This document shows, piece by piece, positions 6,690-51,124 of a DNA stretch of 64,000 bases; positions within the stretch are counted from its first letter, which is position 1; each line of letters starts with the position of its first letter. The translations under genes and the position numbers were made by a program. Below the pieces are notes generated by a model. That model was not told the origin of the DNA. It made no database searches and saw only the letters and a program-made list of their open reading frames with translations. Origin of the DNA: Rhyzopertha dominica (Eukaryota > Arthropoda > Insecta > Coleoptera > Bostrichidae); assembly GCA_025024175.1 (NCBI GenBank), contig QCXZ01000137.1, positions 4,030,001 through 4,094,000 on the forward strand, read 5' to 3'.

Positions 6690-7309
6690 TTTAAAACATG
6701 GGCGCAGCTTGCATTTTTTTAATGGGAAGTAAGGGGTTGAAAGGCACATCATTGAAAAGGGTATTTTTTCCTAATTTCAAAAATGTATCACACTTGTACA
6801 ATTTATTACCATTTTTCTTGACTGGTGATAATTTTCATCTAGTTTTTATTAATTTATCGCGTATCGGGTACCCCAAAAGTAAAAAAGAAAAAATGATTCC
6901 GTGAAAATCTGTATTTTTCACGGAATCATGGTTTTCCCTACCCGACTCGCAATAAATCTATCAAACTAGAAGAAAATTATCACCAGTCAAGGAAAAATGA
7001 TAATACCTGGCTTTTTTGTCCATTTTCATTCTTTTCGTTCTTTGTCAGGCTCAATTATTGTATTTACACTTTTCTCATCTCAGAAGCAATAAATTGTACA
7101 AATGAGATACATTTTTGAAATCAGGAAAAAATATCATTTTCAATGATGTGCCTTTGGCCCCTCTTTCCATTTAAAAATGCAACTGACACGGAGTTAAAAA
7201 AATCCAGAAAATGCATTTTAATTACCCATAGGCCCACGCACAATTTCAGAGAAACCGGTAGAACAGAACCTGAAATAACCTGCTGGTTCCACACTTTGTA
7301 GCGACCCTG
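6690..7309. mobile_element. foldback element of mariner family B, left end lost
   Basis: It is a large imperfect palindrome. Sequence at 6700-6830 recurs inverted at 7085-7190, and an inner palindrome runs about 6814-6990. Its apex, around 6890-6935, is a pair of arms reading GATTCCGTGAAAA and its complement. The apex arms match the transposon 3' region at 31885-31910, so this looks like two element ends joined head-to-head. The right terminus is the family B repeat followed by TA (7310-7311). The left terminal repeat is missing. Confidence 0.75.
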
Positions 7310-9221: not shown

Positions 9222-9767
9222 GCACAAAGGATCTCAGACGAAAGTTCTTTACAAAATGAAATATATCATCTAAAATCAGCTCTAGTGAGAAATGGTTATA
9301 GCAATAACAATATTTGATCAGTTTTTAATAAAAGTGCTCATCCAAATCAAGTAAATTCTCAGCCAGGACAAAGTAAATTGAAGTTGAGTTAGCCTTATGT
9401 ACAAGGCCTTTCGGAAAAATTAAAGAGGATGCTTAGAAAACATGATATTTTAGTTGTGGATACTACATATAATAACTTAGATAAAATTTTAAGTTCTACT
9501 AAAGATAAAGTACATTTAGAGAGTGAAGGTGTTTACAAAATTACATGTTCTTGCGGCAAGTGTTACATAGGTCAAACTAAAAGAAAAGTTGGTACGCGTT
9601 TGAAAGAACACATACGTGCTACTAGGCTGCAACAGATAAATAAATCTTCTGTAGCTGAACACTCCTATTTGACTAAATACATGATTGACTTTGATAAAAC
9701 ACAAATTTTACATAGAGAAAAATATTATCACAAATGTCTAATAAAAGAAGCTATTAGAAATTTGTAG
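9222..9767 (+). pseudogene. Penelope-like RT C-terminus plus GIY-YIG endonuclease
   Basis: One frame runs from about 9222 to the stop at 9765-9767, interrupted by two stops before 9429. The upstream part (RISDESSLQNEIYHLKSAL) resembles the linker after the reverse transcriptase of Penelope-like elements. From 9429 the frame is open for 112 codons. Residues about 35-60 contain GVYKITC, CGKCYIGQTKR and a downstream RLKEH, which are the GIY-YIG core with its Tyr-Ile-Gly, a Cys pair and the catalytic Arg region. In intact elements this nuclease nicks target DNA for priming. The polymerase palm is absent, so the element cannot replicate itself. Confidence 0.82.
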
Positions 9768-10639: not shown

Positions 10640-10870
10640 TTTATATATATTTTTTCAAAATACTCTCCTCTACAATCTATACACTTCTGCATGCGTCTGA
10701 ACCACTCATCAAAACATTTTTCCAGTCTCCTGGAGTCAGGTTATTTACCTCAGTTTTAAATGCGTCGACAGCTTCTTCTGCTGTTGTAAAACGGAGACCA
10801 CGCAATTTATTCTTCACCTTAGGGAACAGAAAAAAAATCATAAGGTGCCAGATCAGGACTATACTGCGAG
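10640..10870 (-). pseudogene. mariner transposase C-terminal fragment
   Basis: On the minus strand, broken frames give KCIDCRGEYFEK-like and WF-KMF-like segments typical of the last ~80 residues of mariner transposases. The fragment ends at the 8-bp target duplication ACTGCGAG of the nested hAT element. It is frameshifted and non-functional. Confidence 0.65.
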
Positions 10871-11878
10871 TTAGAGGTTGATAGTTGCTGCAGGAACTAG
10901 TACCAGTGTACTAGTTCCCAGCAGGCACTAGATGAACTAGTTCCTTGTTCAACGCGGAACTAGTTCCTCCGGAACTAAACTGTATAAAATGATCACATTC
11001 GTTCGGGGATTTCGGATCTAGGAACTAACGGACAGCGGTTCAAATAGTTCGTACATACATAGTACCTTTGTTCACGTAGTGAGTATGGGAGCCACAACCG
11101 CCAAGTTTCCATGGTCTGGGACTGGGATCTTAACAATCAACAAACGATTTGATTTGTGCGGAGCATGCTTGCTAGATTGCACAACTAAACAGAAGTAAAA
11201 AAATTTTTGGTCAAATATATATGGGGTAATACTTTTATTATACTTTTTGGCAGTTGGTGGTAACTATCATCTTTATCTGGCAATCCTGATTATGTATTTA
11301 ATGTATCAGTAAAGCATGTTTTGCATTTGTTTCTAAAGTTCTTGTAATAAACAAGCTGTAGATGATAACACCTGAAATGTTGATTAATTTCTTTGTTTAT
11401 GCCTACATGAAGCATTTAGGGGTGCTTACTCCGACAAGTGCTCCTGTCGGAGTAAATGATATGCACAGCTATGAGCCTTTATATGTTTTGACCCGGCAGC
11501 TGTAATAATAAACAAATTGTTGGTGGGCTGTACCTTCGATACAACCGCAATTTAAACGTGATGTATTATAGAAAGACTTATGACTTTTTTAAAATATTTT
11601 TCAGTATTTATATTTCGTTATTTACTATAATAATACGAACAACTTTCAATTTTGCGTTAACAAATCTAATATATAGTTCTTTGTCGCACCTTGTACGCGT
11701 TACGGTGCTAAATAGGCTTCTAGCTCCGGCGCCAGCAAGGGATAAAGGACACAGTTTTTGCGTGAACCGTTTACCGGTCTACCGTCTACACCATTATAAT
11801 ACGTGACACAAAGTTACGTCCAGGAACTAAAGGAACTAAGGAAGTAGTTCCCTTCAAGGTACTAAATGTCCCACCTCT
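10871..11878. mobile_element. hAT-like non-autonomous element with GGAACTAGTTCC arrays
   Basis: An exact 8-bp direct duplication ACTGCGAG flanks it (10863-10870 and 11879-11886), which is the hAT signature. The ends contain AGAGGT and its complement ACCTCT. Within ~110 bp of the left end the palindromic motif GGAACTAGTTCC or a half of it recurs at least five times, and again near the right end (11822-11850). Such subterminal repeats usually bind the transposase. The interior (11040-11800) has no long frame, so it depends on another element. Confidence 0.82.
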
Positions 11879-34135: not shown

Positions 34136-34955
34136 CTATTACAGTACTCAAAATTTTTTATGTATAGCAACAGCTTGCTGGGTGCATTTTAGGTATCGTA
34201 TAAAGAATCGTCTGTCACTTATATCTTTTGCATATTTTCTGTAACATTCTAGGTATTTTCATGTTACAGTGAATGTTCGGTTTGTTGCTTGGAAATTTTA
34301 TTAATAATGCAGAATGCAGACTTCAATCTTCTATATCGTCTACAGTCATGTAAGCCGACATGCTATTTTATAGATATCATCTCGTGTTTATGGTATCCTG
34401 TGGTACACTTTTAACAACAACAATCCTAAAGACAAGTTACACAAAATTTAACGCTTCCAGTGCAAAAAATATATGCTCGTATGCAATCACAAAGCTTCGG
34501 ATCTCTCTTTGGAAAAGCTTTCGAACGCCTCTTACGCTAACAAAAAACGAATCGGCGGCCTGAAAGAGATAAACACACCCTCGGATAGATTTATTCCGTT
34601 TTATCTTCGATGGGGGATTTGACGGCGAAATAAATGGTATACCTGGGCCGATATCCCGGTGGAAAAATAATCCGATGTCGGCTCGCGGGAGGCACGAGGA
34701 AAAAGACCGCTCGCGTCGGTCGTTCCGCGCTTTAATTGGTGGGTCGGGTTAATTGAATTAATGAGGACCGTTAATATTGTACTTATCGAGGTGATGGATC
34801 ACCCGCCGAAGAAACGCAGGGACAGGTTATGGGGGAGGTGTGAAATCGAGTTTCTGGGGTGGACAGATGAATAATGATGATATTCTAAGTAAAGAATGTT
34901 ATATGAACATGTCTTTTTCCTTTTAGTTTAGAAGTTATAAGCATTTTAATTAAAG
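34136..34955. other. no recognisable gene
   Basis: NAV intron sequence. It is GC-richer at 34550-34840 but has no convincing coding frame. Confidence 0.4.
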
Positions 34956-35072
34956 TGCATGTCTATGCTGTGCTGTCTACACCTCAACCAACTGCAGATA
35001 GTACTATTTCGCTGTCATTACAGCTCATCAGTGCAGTTGGTTGAGGTGTAGACAGCACAGCATAGACATGCA
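34956..35072. repeat. 117-bp perfect hairpin containing a hammerhead ribozyme
   Basis: The two arms, 34956-34996 and 35032-35072, are 41 bp long and perfectly complementary, with weaker pairing continuing a few bases outward. The 35-nt centre is not random: on the minus strand it forms the catalytic core of a hammerhead ribozyme, with the arms as stem I. A diverged relative lies at 40276-40367. It could be a foldback MITE or a small ribozyme-bearing retroelement. Confidence 0.9.
34985..35043 (-). ncRNA. type I hammerhead ribozyme (complete core)
   Basis: Self-cleaving RNA motif. On the minus strand: stem I 5' side ending ACTGCA, then CTGATGA (35031-35025, C3 to A9), stem II GCTGT-AATG-ACAGC (35024-35011), GAA (35010-35008, G12 to A14), stem III ATAG-TA-CTAT (35007-34998, beginning A15.1 and ending U16.1), C17 at 34997, then TGCAGT, the 3' side of stem I. 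Every invariant core base is present. Stems II and III are capped and stem I is open, which is type I topology. Predicted cleavage lies between 34997 and 34996. Stem I is unusually long (41 bp), which may slow product release. Whether it is transcribed is unknown; it is antisense to NAV. Confidence 0.82.
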
Positions 35073-35339
35073 TTTTAATGTATGTTGGTTCTTGCCCGTC
35101 AGCAAAAAGTGCCGTGGGGGCCTGCTGTCAAATTGAAGTATGCAGTTGCATGCCAATTTGTCAGGCTACAGGTCACTTCCTTTAGGAAGTAGTTCCCGTT
35201 AAGGCAGCTAGGTGGCTATGTCATCATGTCAGTGTAATGCTGACAGATGGCATTGCCATCCTAAATTCTTACTAGCATTTTAATTATTTACCTACATTTA
35301 TTTAATTTGCATAAAACATTTTTAATGAAAATCTAAATA
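35073..35339. other. possible body of the hammerhead element
   Basis: There is no gene. It contains at 35238-35259 a 22-base segment (TGCTGACAG, one variable base, then TGGCATTGCCAT with small overlap) that also occurs inverted beside the second hammerhead hairpin at 40405-40426. Confidence 0.45.
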
Positions 35340-40275: not shown

Positions 40276-40367
40276 GCTATGCTGTCTGCACCGCAACCAA
40301 CTACAGATTTCGCTGTCATTACAGCTCATCAGCGAAGTTTAGGTCTGATGCAGACAGCATGACATAG
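40276..40367 (-). ncRNA. second hammerhead hairpin, stem III reduced
   Basis: On the minus strand, CTGATGA (40332-40326), stem II GCTGT-AATG-ACAGC and GAA match the ribozyme at 34985 exactly. The capped stem III is replaced by just AT before C17 (40306). Distal stem I arms GCTGTCTGCA and TGCAGACAGC still pair, but the stretch next to the core is mismatched. It may be inactive alone. Confidence 0.68.
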
Positions 40368-40969
40368 AACTGGTTTTGCTTATATATATGTAAGCAGAAA
40401 AATACATGGCAATGCCAGCTGTCAGCAATTAAATATTTGCGATATCATCGCCCTCTTATTTTTAGTTTTCTTGTTTTTTCCGCTTGTCAGTTCGTTACTT
40501 TTTAAATTATCCACATTCTTATCAAATTTAGTAAAACTTAGATATGATTACCTTATTTGACATTTTTATTTTATCGAATCTATTTCTAGATTATTTAAAT
40601 TAATGTTCTATTACTCTTTGATAATGCAACTGGCCAACTATTACAAAATGAATTAATGACATATATCGTAGCAATGTTCATGTCACCAAATGTAACTACC
40701 CTAATTTCAAAACAACATTGGACTCACAAAATTGTTATTTAATTCCAGAATCGAGTATTAGATTGAATAGAATAAAATCAAGCTGTTTATAGCGATAGCT
40801 ACATATTATCGAGAGTCTATTGCATATCAGCGATCTTTCAGACCTATTGTACAATCGAACTACTACATTAACAATTTACTGCCAACGTCATATCACGAAT
40901 ATAAGGTATTTTCAGAGTATCAAAAATTTGTCATTGTCTTCGATAGGGTGGATAAGGGCGTAGCTTGGA
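40368..40969. other. no recognisable gene
   Basis: It holds the inverted 22-base segment shared with 35238-35259 (here 40405-40426); otherwise plain AT-rich sequence. Confidence 0.4.
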
Positions 40970-41790: not shown

Positions 41791-42636
41791 CCACGTTGGG
41801 CGCTAATACTTGGTGTTATGGTAAAGGAGGAAGCTATAGCGCCAGGAAGACTCCTTAACTATTTGGGTTAAGAGTATTTTTCATTAGAGGCAGACCTGTT
41901 GCAGATTAACAAAAGGTTTGCCTGGCGTCAAAAAAAACGTTCTATTGTAAGTTAATATTGTAAATAACGACTTATACTTAGCTCCACCTTGAATTATCAG
42001 TTTTTCTAGGCCGGATGCAAACGTAGTTTAATGTAATTTACAAGAAGAATAAAAGAAATAAACATAGTAGGAACTAGACCATTTAAAGTAATTTATTAAT
42101 AATATCTACAATTTAATGATGTAGCGCGAAATCCTGAACAGTATGGCAAAAACTAAGAAAATGCCCGAGATTTCTTCCTCATCATAAAACAGCGCGTTTG
42201 TCAATGTAAACCAAAACTTTACAATTAAACCATGTTATTTTTTTTTAAATTTTAGATTATCTTTTCTGATGAAAATTTAATCTTGATGGTCCAGATGGTT
42301 TCAATTGTTATGTGAGATATGGAGAGAGAACCTGAGTAACTTTTAAAACGAAACTTTGGAGGTGGTACGTTAATGGTATGGGGTGCCTTTATAAAAGCAG
42401 GCGTTTTAACAGTGGCTTACCCATCAACCTGAATGAACATTCGAGTTCTTGAGACAAATTTAGTGCCCTTGTTAAATAACAATTACGAACGAGATTTCAT
42501 TTTCCAACAAGATAGTGCGAGGATTCATGTCAGTAGAGAGTCGATGACTTGGTTTGCCAGACAAAACGTCGAATTGTTAGAGTGGCCCTGTTGTTCACCT
42601 GACGACATGAACCCAATTGAAAACCTCTGAGGTATC

Positions 42637-43638
42637 TTGGTTCGGCCAGTGTATGCGGATAGAAGACTTCGAGGATTGATAAAAACTGAGGTCAACGGCT
42701 CCTATAAACGTTTTGTACAGAATACCGAAACCAAAATAAAGACCGATCCGCGCAAAATAACAAAAAAAGACCAGTGTCTTAATACGCCAGATAATATTCT
42801 AAATGCCTTTGCTGATTTCTTTAGCAAATCTTACGCAGAATCATTCAATCAATCAATTAAACCTAAGATGACAACAGGACCCGATGGCATTCCTGCATTT
42901 TTGTTAAAAGTCTGTGCACATATATTTGCCTGTCCTTTGATGGTATTATATCTACGCCTAAGGACGCGTATAATTACCGACATTTGGAAACAGTCTAAGG
43001 TGTGTCTGCTCTACAAAAAGGATGATTTACGGGACATTACTAATTACAGACCAATTTCTATTATATGTAACTTTAGCAAAGTATTTGAGATACTCTTACA
43101 TAACTGTTTATATCATAATTTATCTAAGTATATTAGTGTACACCAGCACGGCTTCATCAAGGCACGCTCTACTACCACCAATTTGGTTTGTTTTTCACAG
43201 TTTGTCGCTGAAGCTTTGGATGGTCATTTGCAGGTCGACGTGATTTATACGGAATTCTCCAAAGCGTTCGATAAGTTGGATCACAATATTTTGTTAAACA
43301 AACTTAATCGCTTCGGCATATCTGATGCTTTGATTGATTTGTTCAAATCTTACCTCCACAATAGAGTTCATTACGTGGCATATAATGGATTCAAGTCCAG
43401 CGCATACAATGCTACATCTGGAGTGCCGCAAGGTTCTGTTTTAGGTCCTTTGTTTTTTATACTGTTTATTAATGACATAACCAACGTTATAAATGTCAAC
43501 ACTTTACTTTATGCGGATGACCTTAAACTTTACACTACCATACATTCAAGCATCGATTGTATTCGTTTACAAAACAATCTTGACGTACTGAATAACTGGT
43601 GTAGATCTAACGGACTGCCTTTGAACATATGTAGCTAA
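42637..43638 (+). pseudogene. jockey-like LINE reverse transcriptase, long open frame
   Basis: A 333-codon frame. The first ~12 codons are Tc1 sequence read through; LINE sequence follows. It includes TGPDGIPAFLLKVCA, ITNYRPISIICNFSKVFEIL, HGFIKARSTTTNL, TEFSKAFDKLDHNILLNKL (motif A, where the first catalytic Asp is Glu), SGVPQGSVLGPLFFILFIND and LLYADDLKLY (intact motif C). An internal deletion lies before TGPDG. The stop comes shortly after LPLNI and the homology continues in other frames to about 44310. The conservative Asp-to-Glu change and truncation make it inactive. Confidence 0.82.
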
Positions 43639-48832: not shown

Positions 48833-51124
48833 CAGGGTGATTTTTTGAAAACTTCACACCTTAAATAACTTTAAATAGAGGAAAAATTTAAAATTTTGCA
48901 AAAACAGGTAAACTTTTGTTTGCAGGGGGACAACTTTTGAGATAAGTTTTTAATGGATAGCGCTTACCCTCTTAGCGGGGTAGATACCCCTTCAAAAATT
49001 TTAAATGAAACTATCCATCTTACGATACATCATTTAAAAGCTTATTACACAAGGAGTCTTGCCATGTTATTAGTTTTACTATTTTTTACCCATTGACGGG
49101 GTAGTGGGTCAAAAAGTGCATTGTAGCAAATGGCTTATAGAATGGAATATTTTGGACTTTTTTAACAAAATTTATTGTCTTGCAGTTACAATAAAAATTG
49201 TCCTTACTTAAGCCTAAAAAAAACTTGTTAAAAATAATTGTTACACTTAAGCAAAATGCCAAAAATACTTAAAATTTTCTTTCGACATTACTTGATATTG
49301 CAACTCGACAGTTTATACTGAATTGGCTAAATAATTATCTACTTTGTGTTTCCAATTTTTTGTTTCAACTTTTTGGCTACTTCTTTGGCACGACCATCTT
49401 TTTGTTCACATTCCTTTTATAAATCGCGTGAAATTTTAAAGTGAGAGTCCAAGTGATAATGGTTTATTCAACTGCCGAAAGGGTAGAAATAATTTTTATT
49501 TACGGTGCTGAGCATAGCTGTGCTNGTGCGTCAGCANGGGTGTTTAACGAACGGCACCCNGATAAAAATGTTGACGCTAGGTACATTCTCGATCTCGTGC
49601 AGAAATTTCAAGACACTGGATCTGTAGTAAACAAAAAAAGGGCAGGGAATAGAGTCGTTGATGAAATGGCCCAACTTGAAGTACTTGGTCATTTTGCAAT
49701 GGATCCAACTAGCTCTTTGCGTAACATTTCTACAGCCACTGGACTTTCTTATTCATCTGTAAGGAAAGTTATAAAACTGCACAAATTCCATCCCTATAAG
49801 ATGAAAACTCTCCAGGAACTCGGCGAAGATGACTTCGATAGAAGACTGCAATTTTGCGAAATTATGACAGAAAAGATTATAGTAAATCCAAATCTAATAA
49901 AAAATATCTGCTTCAGTGATGAATGCACATTTTTTTTGAACGGCTCTGTAAATAAACATAACGTCAGGTACTGGAGTGACGAAAATCCTTATATTTTTCC
50001 AGAAGGTCATACACAAGTTCCTCAGAAGCTGAACGTCTGGGCTGGAATACTTGGCAACGCAATTGTAGGTCCAATTTTCATTGATGGGACGCTAAATGGG
50101 GGAATGTATTTAGAATTACTTGATAACGTTATTGATCCTTTAATCCCAGAGCAATTAGAAAACCAACGTGACCCTGAAGGAAATCCAATGTTGGATGAAT
50201 ACGAATTGTTTTACCAACATGATGGAGCCCCACCGCATTACGCCATTAATGTGCGAAATTGGTTAAATCATAGATTTCCTCTTCACTGGATTGGTAGGCG
50301 TGGAACAATTGAATGACCGCCACGATCACCCGATTTGACTGCTTTAGATTTCTTTCTATGGGGTCATTTAAAATCTGTGGTTTACAAAACACAACCTACT
50401 AGCCTGGACGATCTGCGATAAAGAATTATTAACGAGTGCAGGAGGATTCCACCTGAAACTTTCCGAAAAGTGCAGCAGGAGTTCGAGAACCGTCTGTATT
50501 ATTGTATGGAAAGAGGTGGTGCACAATTTGACAATCTATTGTAAGGTTTGAATTTCTATGGTTTTGTTCACACTGTTTTTGGAGTTACAAATAAATAATT
50601 TTTCTTTTTCGTGGACATGGACTTTCTAAAAAATTACGTGATAAATACTTTAATGTTAATAATAATGTTAAAAGAAAATTCTCAGTATTCTGGGAGTTTT
50701 TTTAAGTGTCATATTTTTTTACAACTTGTTTAAATTTTGGATTCTCGTAAGGACAAATTTTATTTCCGCTCTAAAATAAAATACATTTTGTTGAAAAGAG
50801 TCCAAAATATTCAATTTAATAAGCAACCTGTTCCGTAGGCACTATTAATCTATTACCCCGTCAATAAGTTAAACGTGGTAAAACTAATTACATGGCCAGA
50901 CCCTTTCTGAAATAAGCTTTCAAATGATGTATCACAAGATGGATAGTTCCATTTAAAATTTTTAAAGGGGTGTCTACCCTGCTCAGAGAGTAAGCGCTAT
51001 CCATTAGAAACTTATCTCAAAAGTTGTCCCCCTGCAAACAAAAGTTTACCCGTTATTGCAAATTTTTAAATTTTTGCTATATTTAAAGTTATTTAAGGTG
51101 TGAAGTTTTCAAAAAATCACCCTG
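48833..51124 (+). mobile_element. DD41D mariner, full-length copy
   Basis: It is 2292 bp, starting CAGGGTGATTTTTTGAAAAC and ending with the inverse, TTCAAAAAATCACCCTG. TA is duplicated on both sides (48831-48832 and 51125-51126). Terminal inverted repeats are very long for a mariner, about 250 bp (roughly 48833-49080 and 50875-51124). The transposase is co-oriented but has two point-mutation stops. It lies inside a minus-strand LINE. Three N bases occur in the coding region. Confidence 0.92.
49459..50544 (+). pseudogene. DD41D mariner transposase with two stops
   Basis: It is a 361-codon frame from the ATG at 49459 to TAA at 50542-50544; an upstream in-frame GTG is not needed. The N-terminal helix-turn-helix DNA-binding region covers about residues 1-110. 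Asp 1 is residue 154 (FSDE), Asp 2 is residue 255 (QHDGAPPH) and Asp 3 is residue 297 (SPDLTALDFF). Exactly 41 residues separate the last two, as in DD41D (rosa-like) mariners. The WIGRRGTIE block lies between them. Two substitutions created stops: TGC to TGA at 50314-50316, before Asp 3, and GAA to TAA near 50419. The copy at 1404 keeps sense codons at both places. Confidence 0.92.

Follow-up and report, generated by a model that had tools for sequence, protein, structure and literature searches.

The non-LTR retrozymes that Cervera and de la Pena described from animals are, according to the cited texts, elements of ~170-400 nt with a GC content below 50%, which are highly self-paired and carry hammerheads with a weak helix III, and their target duplications, when present, are longer than 4 bp (PMC7229834, PMC7761336). 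A double-hammerhead arrangement is known in newts and has been proposed for Aedes (PMC3088659, PMC6155905), and for the hammerhead RNA of Aedes aegypti the published account gives no cleavage under the conditions tried (PMC3088659). According to the same account, the loop contacts of stem I raise activity at low Mg2+ by several orders of magnitude (PMC3088659). Template switching that perfects RNA hairpins is documented in the source cited for it (PMC8794818).

The window, i.e. the whole stretch of 64,000 nucleotides of Rhyzopertha dominica DNA analysed here (assembly GCA_025024175.1, contig QCXZ01000137.1, positions 4,030,001 to 4,094,000 of the forward strand), contains a hammerhead (copy 1) on the minus strand at 34956-35072, where a 35-nt core stands between two complementary 41-nt arms with no spare base. 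The catalytic core (34997-35031, minus strand), read in the direction 35031-34997, has all core bases of a type I hammerhead: CUGAUGA (C3-A9; 35031-35025), stem II GCUGU/ACAGC with the loop AAUG (35024-35020 / 35015-35011), GAA (G12-A14; 35010-35008), the segment A15.1...U16.1 (35007-34998) and C17 (34997). The position names C3, A9, G12, A14, A15.1, U16.1 and C17 follow the usual hammerhead numbering. Self-cleavage of copy 1 is predicted to occur between 34997 (C17) and 34996. The type I features, namely CUGANGA...GAA, the pair A15.1-U16.1, H17, three helices and an open stem I, are all present in copy 1, and a second copy described below is without helix III. Stem III of copy 1 (AUAGUACUAU; 34998-35007, minus strand) is a perfect 10-nt palindrome, which forms 3 bp and a tetraloop in cis and 10 bp between two molecules. 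Stem I is formed by a 41-nt 3' arm (34956-34996, minus strand) and a 41-nt 5' arm (35032-35072, minus strand), the latter being the perfect complement of the former, and the inverted repeat reaches 48 nt at 98%, with one mismatch (34949-34996 / 35032-35079). The hairpin RNA folds at -87.6 kcal/mol (z -14.5), and none of 200 shuffles is equally low. The initial annotation had described a complete minus-strand hammerhead core capped on perfect 41-bp arms that exactly adjoin it; its coordinates and letters are right, every core base is present, and its assignment to type I is supported by the core letters and by the descriptors.

With a descriptor of the complete hammerhead, one match was found on both strands of the 64 kb (mean 0.02 and maximum 2 in 200 dinucleotide shuffles), and with a looser descriptor, in which helix III is optional, two matches were found in the window (mean 0.005 and maximum 1 in 200 shuffles), both descriptors having been composed only after the motif was known. 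Given these shuffles and the second copy, a chance motif is unlikely. The Rfam model Hammerhead_HH9 (RF02275) matches the minus strand of copy 1 with 30.8 bits (E 3e-5 in 2 kb and 1.3e-6 in 89 bases), below the gathering score of 52, so that scoring with covariance models, proposed in the initial annotation as a check, yields a match that falls short of gathering level. Although its arms are identical, the plus strand of copy 1 gives no HH9 match; it is therefore the core that the match requires, and a plus-strand ribozyme was rejected. An Rfam scan of the window returned zero families at gathering level. A microRNA precursor was considered and rejected, as mir families match both strands, all below gathering, and these scores therefore reflect the long helix.

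A second hammerhead hairpin (copy 2) with imperfect arms lies on the minus strand at 40277-40367. This copy, read 40367-40277, is new relative to the initial annotation, whose suggestion that further copies with a conserved core be sought is thereby answered within the window. Its core (CUGAUGA, stem II, GAA, AU and C17; 40306-40332, minus strand) is identical to that of copy 1 up to GAA in 24/24 columns, and the 25 letters CTGATGAGCTGTAATGACAGCGAAA of copy 1 recur in the window once, at 40308-40332 of the same strand. The eight stem III letters are absent, leaving GAA-AU-C, and the aligned part of the arms has 5 mismatched pairs and one bulge. Identity between the copies is 25/29 aligned letters in the 3' arm and 23/34 in the 5' arm, a difference in divergence that is not significant (Fisher p 0.14). 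HH9 matches copy 2 partially (17.4 bits, E 0.041, against a gathering score of 52). The covariance model R1, which was built from copies 1 and 2 themselves, scores copy 2 at 85.6 bits. Searched with R1, the window holds just these two loci up to E 5, and the arms make each of them match on both strands. Beyond the hairpin, the copies have no significant match in the same orientation over ~430 nt on the 5' side and 370-400 nt on the 3' side, where 14/200 and 7/200 shuffles, respectively, score equally well.

Two further observations concern the surroundings of these hairpins. A near-palindromic sequence, ATGGCAATGCCA(T/G)CTGTCAGC, occurs near both hammerheads in opposite orientation (35238-35259 and 40406-40427), the two aligning with a score of 40, whereas shuffles reach 31 at most (0/200). 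The segment 36858-36894 on the minus strand (CTGAAGA...GAAACATCG) is core-like, but by eye the first pair of its stem II does not form, and the descriptor rejects it.

On balance, copy 1 is probably the type I hammerhead of a short non-autonomous retrozyme-like element, whose stem I was perfected secondarily by a template switch with loss of its internal loop. We infer the following course of transcription, cleavage, circularisation, mobility and switching. In an RNA reading through the minus strand, the core would fold and cleave behind C17 (34997), most favourably when two copies pair via the palindromic stem III; the cut RNA would be ligated into circles and reverse-copied to DNA by a borrowed reverse transcriptase. 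In the simplest account, which needs a single event, a plus strand under synthesis would fold back after the loop and copy its own fresh left arm (the 3' arm, the probable donor of the switch). The 5' arm of the ribozyme (the right arm, the probable recipient) would thereby come to match the 3' arm by exact complementarity, and the internal loop of stem I would be erased. The polymerase of the switch may have been a replicative one or a reverse transcriptase in first-strand cDNA synthesis, two origins that are indistinguishable because product and polarity would be alike in both cases, the reverse transcriptase starting at the RNA 3' end.

A rewriting of the 5' arm would agree in direction with the arm divergence, in which the 5' arm has changed more, at a level short of significance (p 0.14). 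At the 5 mismatched aligned pairs of copy 2, copy 1 has the 3' letter at 3 and the 5' letter at 0, a count which is partly forced, as copy 1 pairs everywhere. The initial annotation read the perfect arms as a sign of recent origin or selection, and they do look recently made perfect.

As to the activity of such a hairpin, the internal loop of stem I, which contacts loop II in the canonical fast form, is absent from copy 1, where the arms are perfect, and stem I of copy 2 is mismatched. HH9 and copy 1 have a common core, and the five inner stem I pairs CUGCA/UGCAG are found in both, whereas copy 1 is without one inner pair and without the internal-loop residues, UUAC and UAC being gaps in the alignment. 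Without the loop contact, copy 1 is predicted to cleave slowly at cellular Mg2+, and the 41-bp helix would keep the cleavage products together. Since slow cleavage is predicted and the products would be held by the helix, we consider the perfect hairpin more probably accidental, and detrimental to the ribozyme, than adaptive or an optimised machine. The perfect foldback, which the initial annotation took for the working form, is therefore unsupported as such, given the mismatched arms of copy 2 and the gaps of copy 1 at the internal-loop residues of HH9.

The lowest-energy fold of the monomer is not the hammerhead (-87.6 versus -83.9 kcal/mol, 3.7 apart), and forming stem III within a single molecule is unfavourable (-83.9 kcal/mol with it, -85.4 kcal/mol without), all these fold energies omitting tertiary contacts. 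The cofold of two copies reaches -183.8 kcal/mol, compared with 2 x -87.6 for separate molecules, with pairing throughout, arms included, two cores and a common stem III of 10 bp. In this model a dimer is possible and its use is not implied, for a perfect long hairpin pairs in this way whatever its loop.

The candidate whole element (34953-35268, minus strand) is a strongly self-paired unit of 316 bp and 46% GC, with the hairpin at its 3' end and a circular fold of -149.6 kcal/mol. It is flanked by a 13-nt exact repeat, AGCATTTTAATTA, whose left (34940-34952) and right (35274-35286) copies are a candidate target-site duplication. A repeat of 13 nt is attained in 10/2000 shuffles, and among 420 window pairs of equal geometry in two, i.e. 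the site of copy 1 itself and one of the 419 others. The 189-nt body without the hairpin (35080-35268) is itself strongly self-paired (z -6.2, 0/200 shuffles; 3.06 sd below the GC trend), and 1 of 156 sampled windows is as low. The unit falls within the size and GC range of retrozymes (about 170-400 nt, <50% GC), at 316 nt and 45.9%, only if the 13-nt repeats are its ends, and as a target duplication of more than 4 bp there is the 13-nt exact repeat and also a competing 10-nt pair. In the 316-bp unit the body precedes the hairpin on its 5' side, so that copy 2 would, if this unit holds, have been truncated at its 5' end. The window contains no further copy and no tandem of the body, the hairpins being two, and no empty site for this unit or for a smaller one consisting of the hairpin. 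A point against the retrozyme-like reading is that copy 1 is a single unit, whereas retrozymes usually form tandem arrays; further points are that copy 2 shares the hairpin only, that the body is single in the window, that the 10-nt repeat competes with the 13-nt one, that HH9 scores below gathering, and that the preferred monomer fold is not a hammerhead.

The competing repeat is the 10-nt word GCATTTTAAT, which occurs three times (34941-34950, 35070-35079 and 35275-35284), so that the 316-bp and the hairpin-only units share their evidence. The third copy of the word (35070-35079) would be the alternative right target-site duplication of a hairpin-only unit of 119 bp (34951-35069), lying between GCATTTTAAT copies that directly flank the hairpin, and 5/1000 shuffles attain 10 nt. 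What moves would in that case be a foldback of ~97-119 bp, either MITE-like or a very small retroposon, with an apical hammerhead and a self-cleaving long-hairpin RNA, the pairing of its arms being maintained either through selection or through recurrent template switching; we regard this as rather unlikely. The homology of the copies, in alignments judged by eye, indeed starts near CTATG and stops near CATAG, but a 5'-truncated larger unit would likewise retain the hairpin alone. The right GCATTTTAAT pairs with the left arm end with one mismatch and may thus be part of the inverted repeat, and the repeat flanking copy 2 has 7 nt only, which is at chance level (126/1000 shuffles). Two stem I pairs are changed on both sides between the copies, as would be expected of maintained pairing, but 127/500 shuffles equal this number and two sequences weigh little, and selection for stem I pairing is not shown by them. 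For the MITE-like hairpin-only unit of the initial annotation there are, accordingly, the arms and the 10-nt direct repeats around the hairpin of copy 1, with those of copy 2 (7 nt) at chance level, and it has to compete with the 316-bp retrozyme-like unit.

A bolder form of the hairpin-only unit would be a self-complete mobile foldback of ~100-120 bp, giving a long double-stranded hairpin RNA tipped by a dimer-competent hammerhead, with its arms repeatedly re-perfected by template switching, so that the core would be kept by selection and the arms by copying. We hold this to be distinctly unlikely.

The hammerheads may also be pseudo-LTR debris of a Penelope-like element (PLE), where copy 2 would represent the usual minimal form and copy 1 would have gained the 8-nt palindromic stem III and the perfect arms. 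Copy 2 (GAA-AU-C) has no helix III, as is usual in PLE hammerheads according to the cited descriptions (PMC7761336, PMC6155905), but copy 1 has one. Among 14 ORFs of at least 120 aa, 10 of which were sent to Pfam, none near copy 1 or copy 2 was recognised as belonging to a PLE, in a survey that small remains could escape. The ORF 9393-9767 on the plus strand is GIY-YIG-like by eye but has no Pfam match, and the nearest reverse transcriptase ORF (42631-43638) matches RVT_1 and is LINE-type by eye, RVT_1 alone being compatible with a PLE. Such an origin appears very improbable. The least probable reading, by which both are inactive relics, i.e. old hammerheads persisting as ordinary DNA whose hairpin is a replication artefact with no present function or mobility, would account for the missing helix III of copy 2, the non-hammerhead monomer fold and loop-less stem I of copy 1 and the mere two scattered copies in the window, but the core is identical in 24/24 columns while the arms differ at 4/29 (3') and 11/34 (5') positions, which suggests constraint on the source element.

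Prokaryotic or phage relatives were sought as well and rejected. Among prokaryote and phage sequences, the core pattern with a free loop occurs in 3 IMG/VR and 2 GTDB stretches, and in the 40 bases on each side of these five matches no arms like those of the window were seen by eye. The region 34900-35320 has no match in the phage records, and the exact patterns of the 3' arm and of the body were not found in IMG/VR. Viral and bacterial contigs contain cores of hammerhead type that share the stem II letters, at L001:10196-10220, L002:11792-11816, L003:7181-7205, L004:4657-4681 and L005:7740-7764, of which L001 and L003 have identical local sequence around the core. In the literature, no occurrence of three exact core strings and no publication treating a retrozyme together with a beetle was found.

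The window contains several other repeats and self-paired segments. The region 6801-6990 is strongly self-paired (7.96 sd below the GC trend) and matches its own reverse complement (6804-7005), and 10801-10990, which is 2.9 sd below that trend, is self-paired and contains recurring words similar to GGAACTAGTTC. Two repeat copies (1584-2807 and 49842-51094) are 95% identical over 1258 aligned columns. Their long ORFs resemble transposases, judged by eye to be of mariner type, and that of the first copy has no Pfam match. The window also encodes a neuron navigator-like CH domain (Pfam CH; PDB 2yrn), which marks the host as an animal, and its transposon ORFs look insect-type by eye.

If the retrozyme-like reading with a perfected stem I is right, this locus would record fold-back template switching on a catalytic RNA that is legible letter by letter, with the core untouched, one arm rewritten and the loop for fast cleavage lost. 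The two copies form a natural variant pair, in which copy 1 combines stem III with a perfect stem I, whereas copy 2 has a mismatched stem I and no stem III; the pair lets one ask which parts of an animal hammerhead its mobile element needs.

Compared with the animal non-LTR retrozymes as described in the cited text (PMC7229834), copy 1 is similar in its type I core, weak helix III, size of ~316 nt, GC content below 50%, self-pairing and direct repeat of more than 4 bp at the presumed ends, and differs in being a single unit rather than a tandem, in having a perfect 41-bp stem I with no internal loop, and in that its circular RNA is a predicted one. The repeat hammerhead of Aedes aegypti, compared by its published description (PMC3088659), has a palindromic loop III that could form a 10-bp dimer helix, as could stem III of copy 1. 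The hammerhead of the Dolichopoda pDo500 satellite likewise comes from an insect, and in the account given of it stem I is proposed to be extended and the ribozyme to adopt a double-hammerhead form, but it belongs to a satellite array and its extended region has 68 bp in all, in contrast to the perfect 41-bp stem of copy 1 (PMC2837043). The helix III nucleotides that are absent from the minimal hammerheads of Penelope-like elements, in the form described in the cited sources (PMC7761336, PMC6155905), are absent from copy 2 also and present in copy 1. Copy 1 belongs with the known animal hammerhead repeats, its perfect, loop-less stem I being an unusual variant of probably mundane origin.
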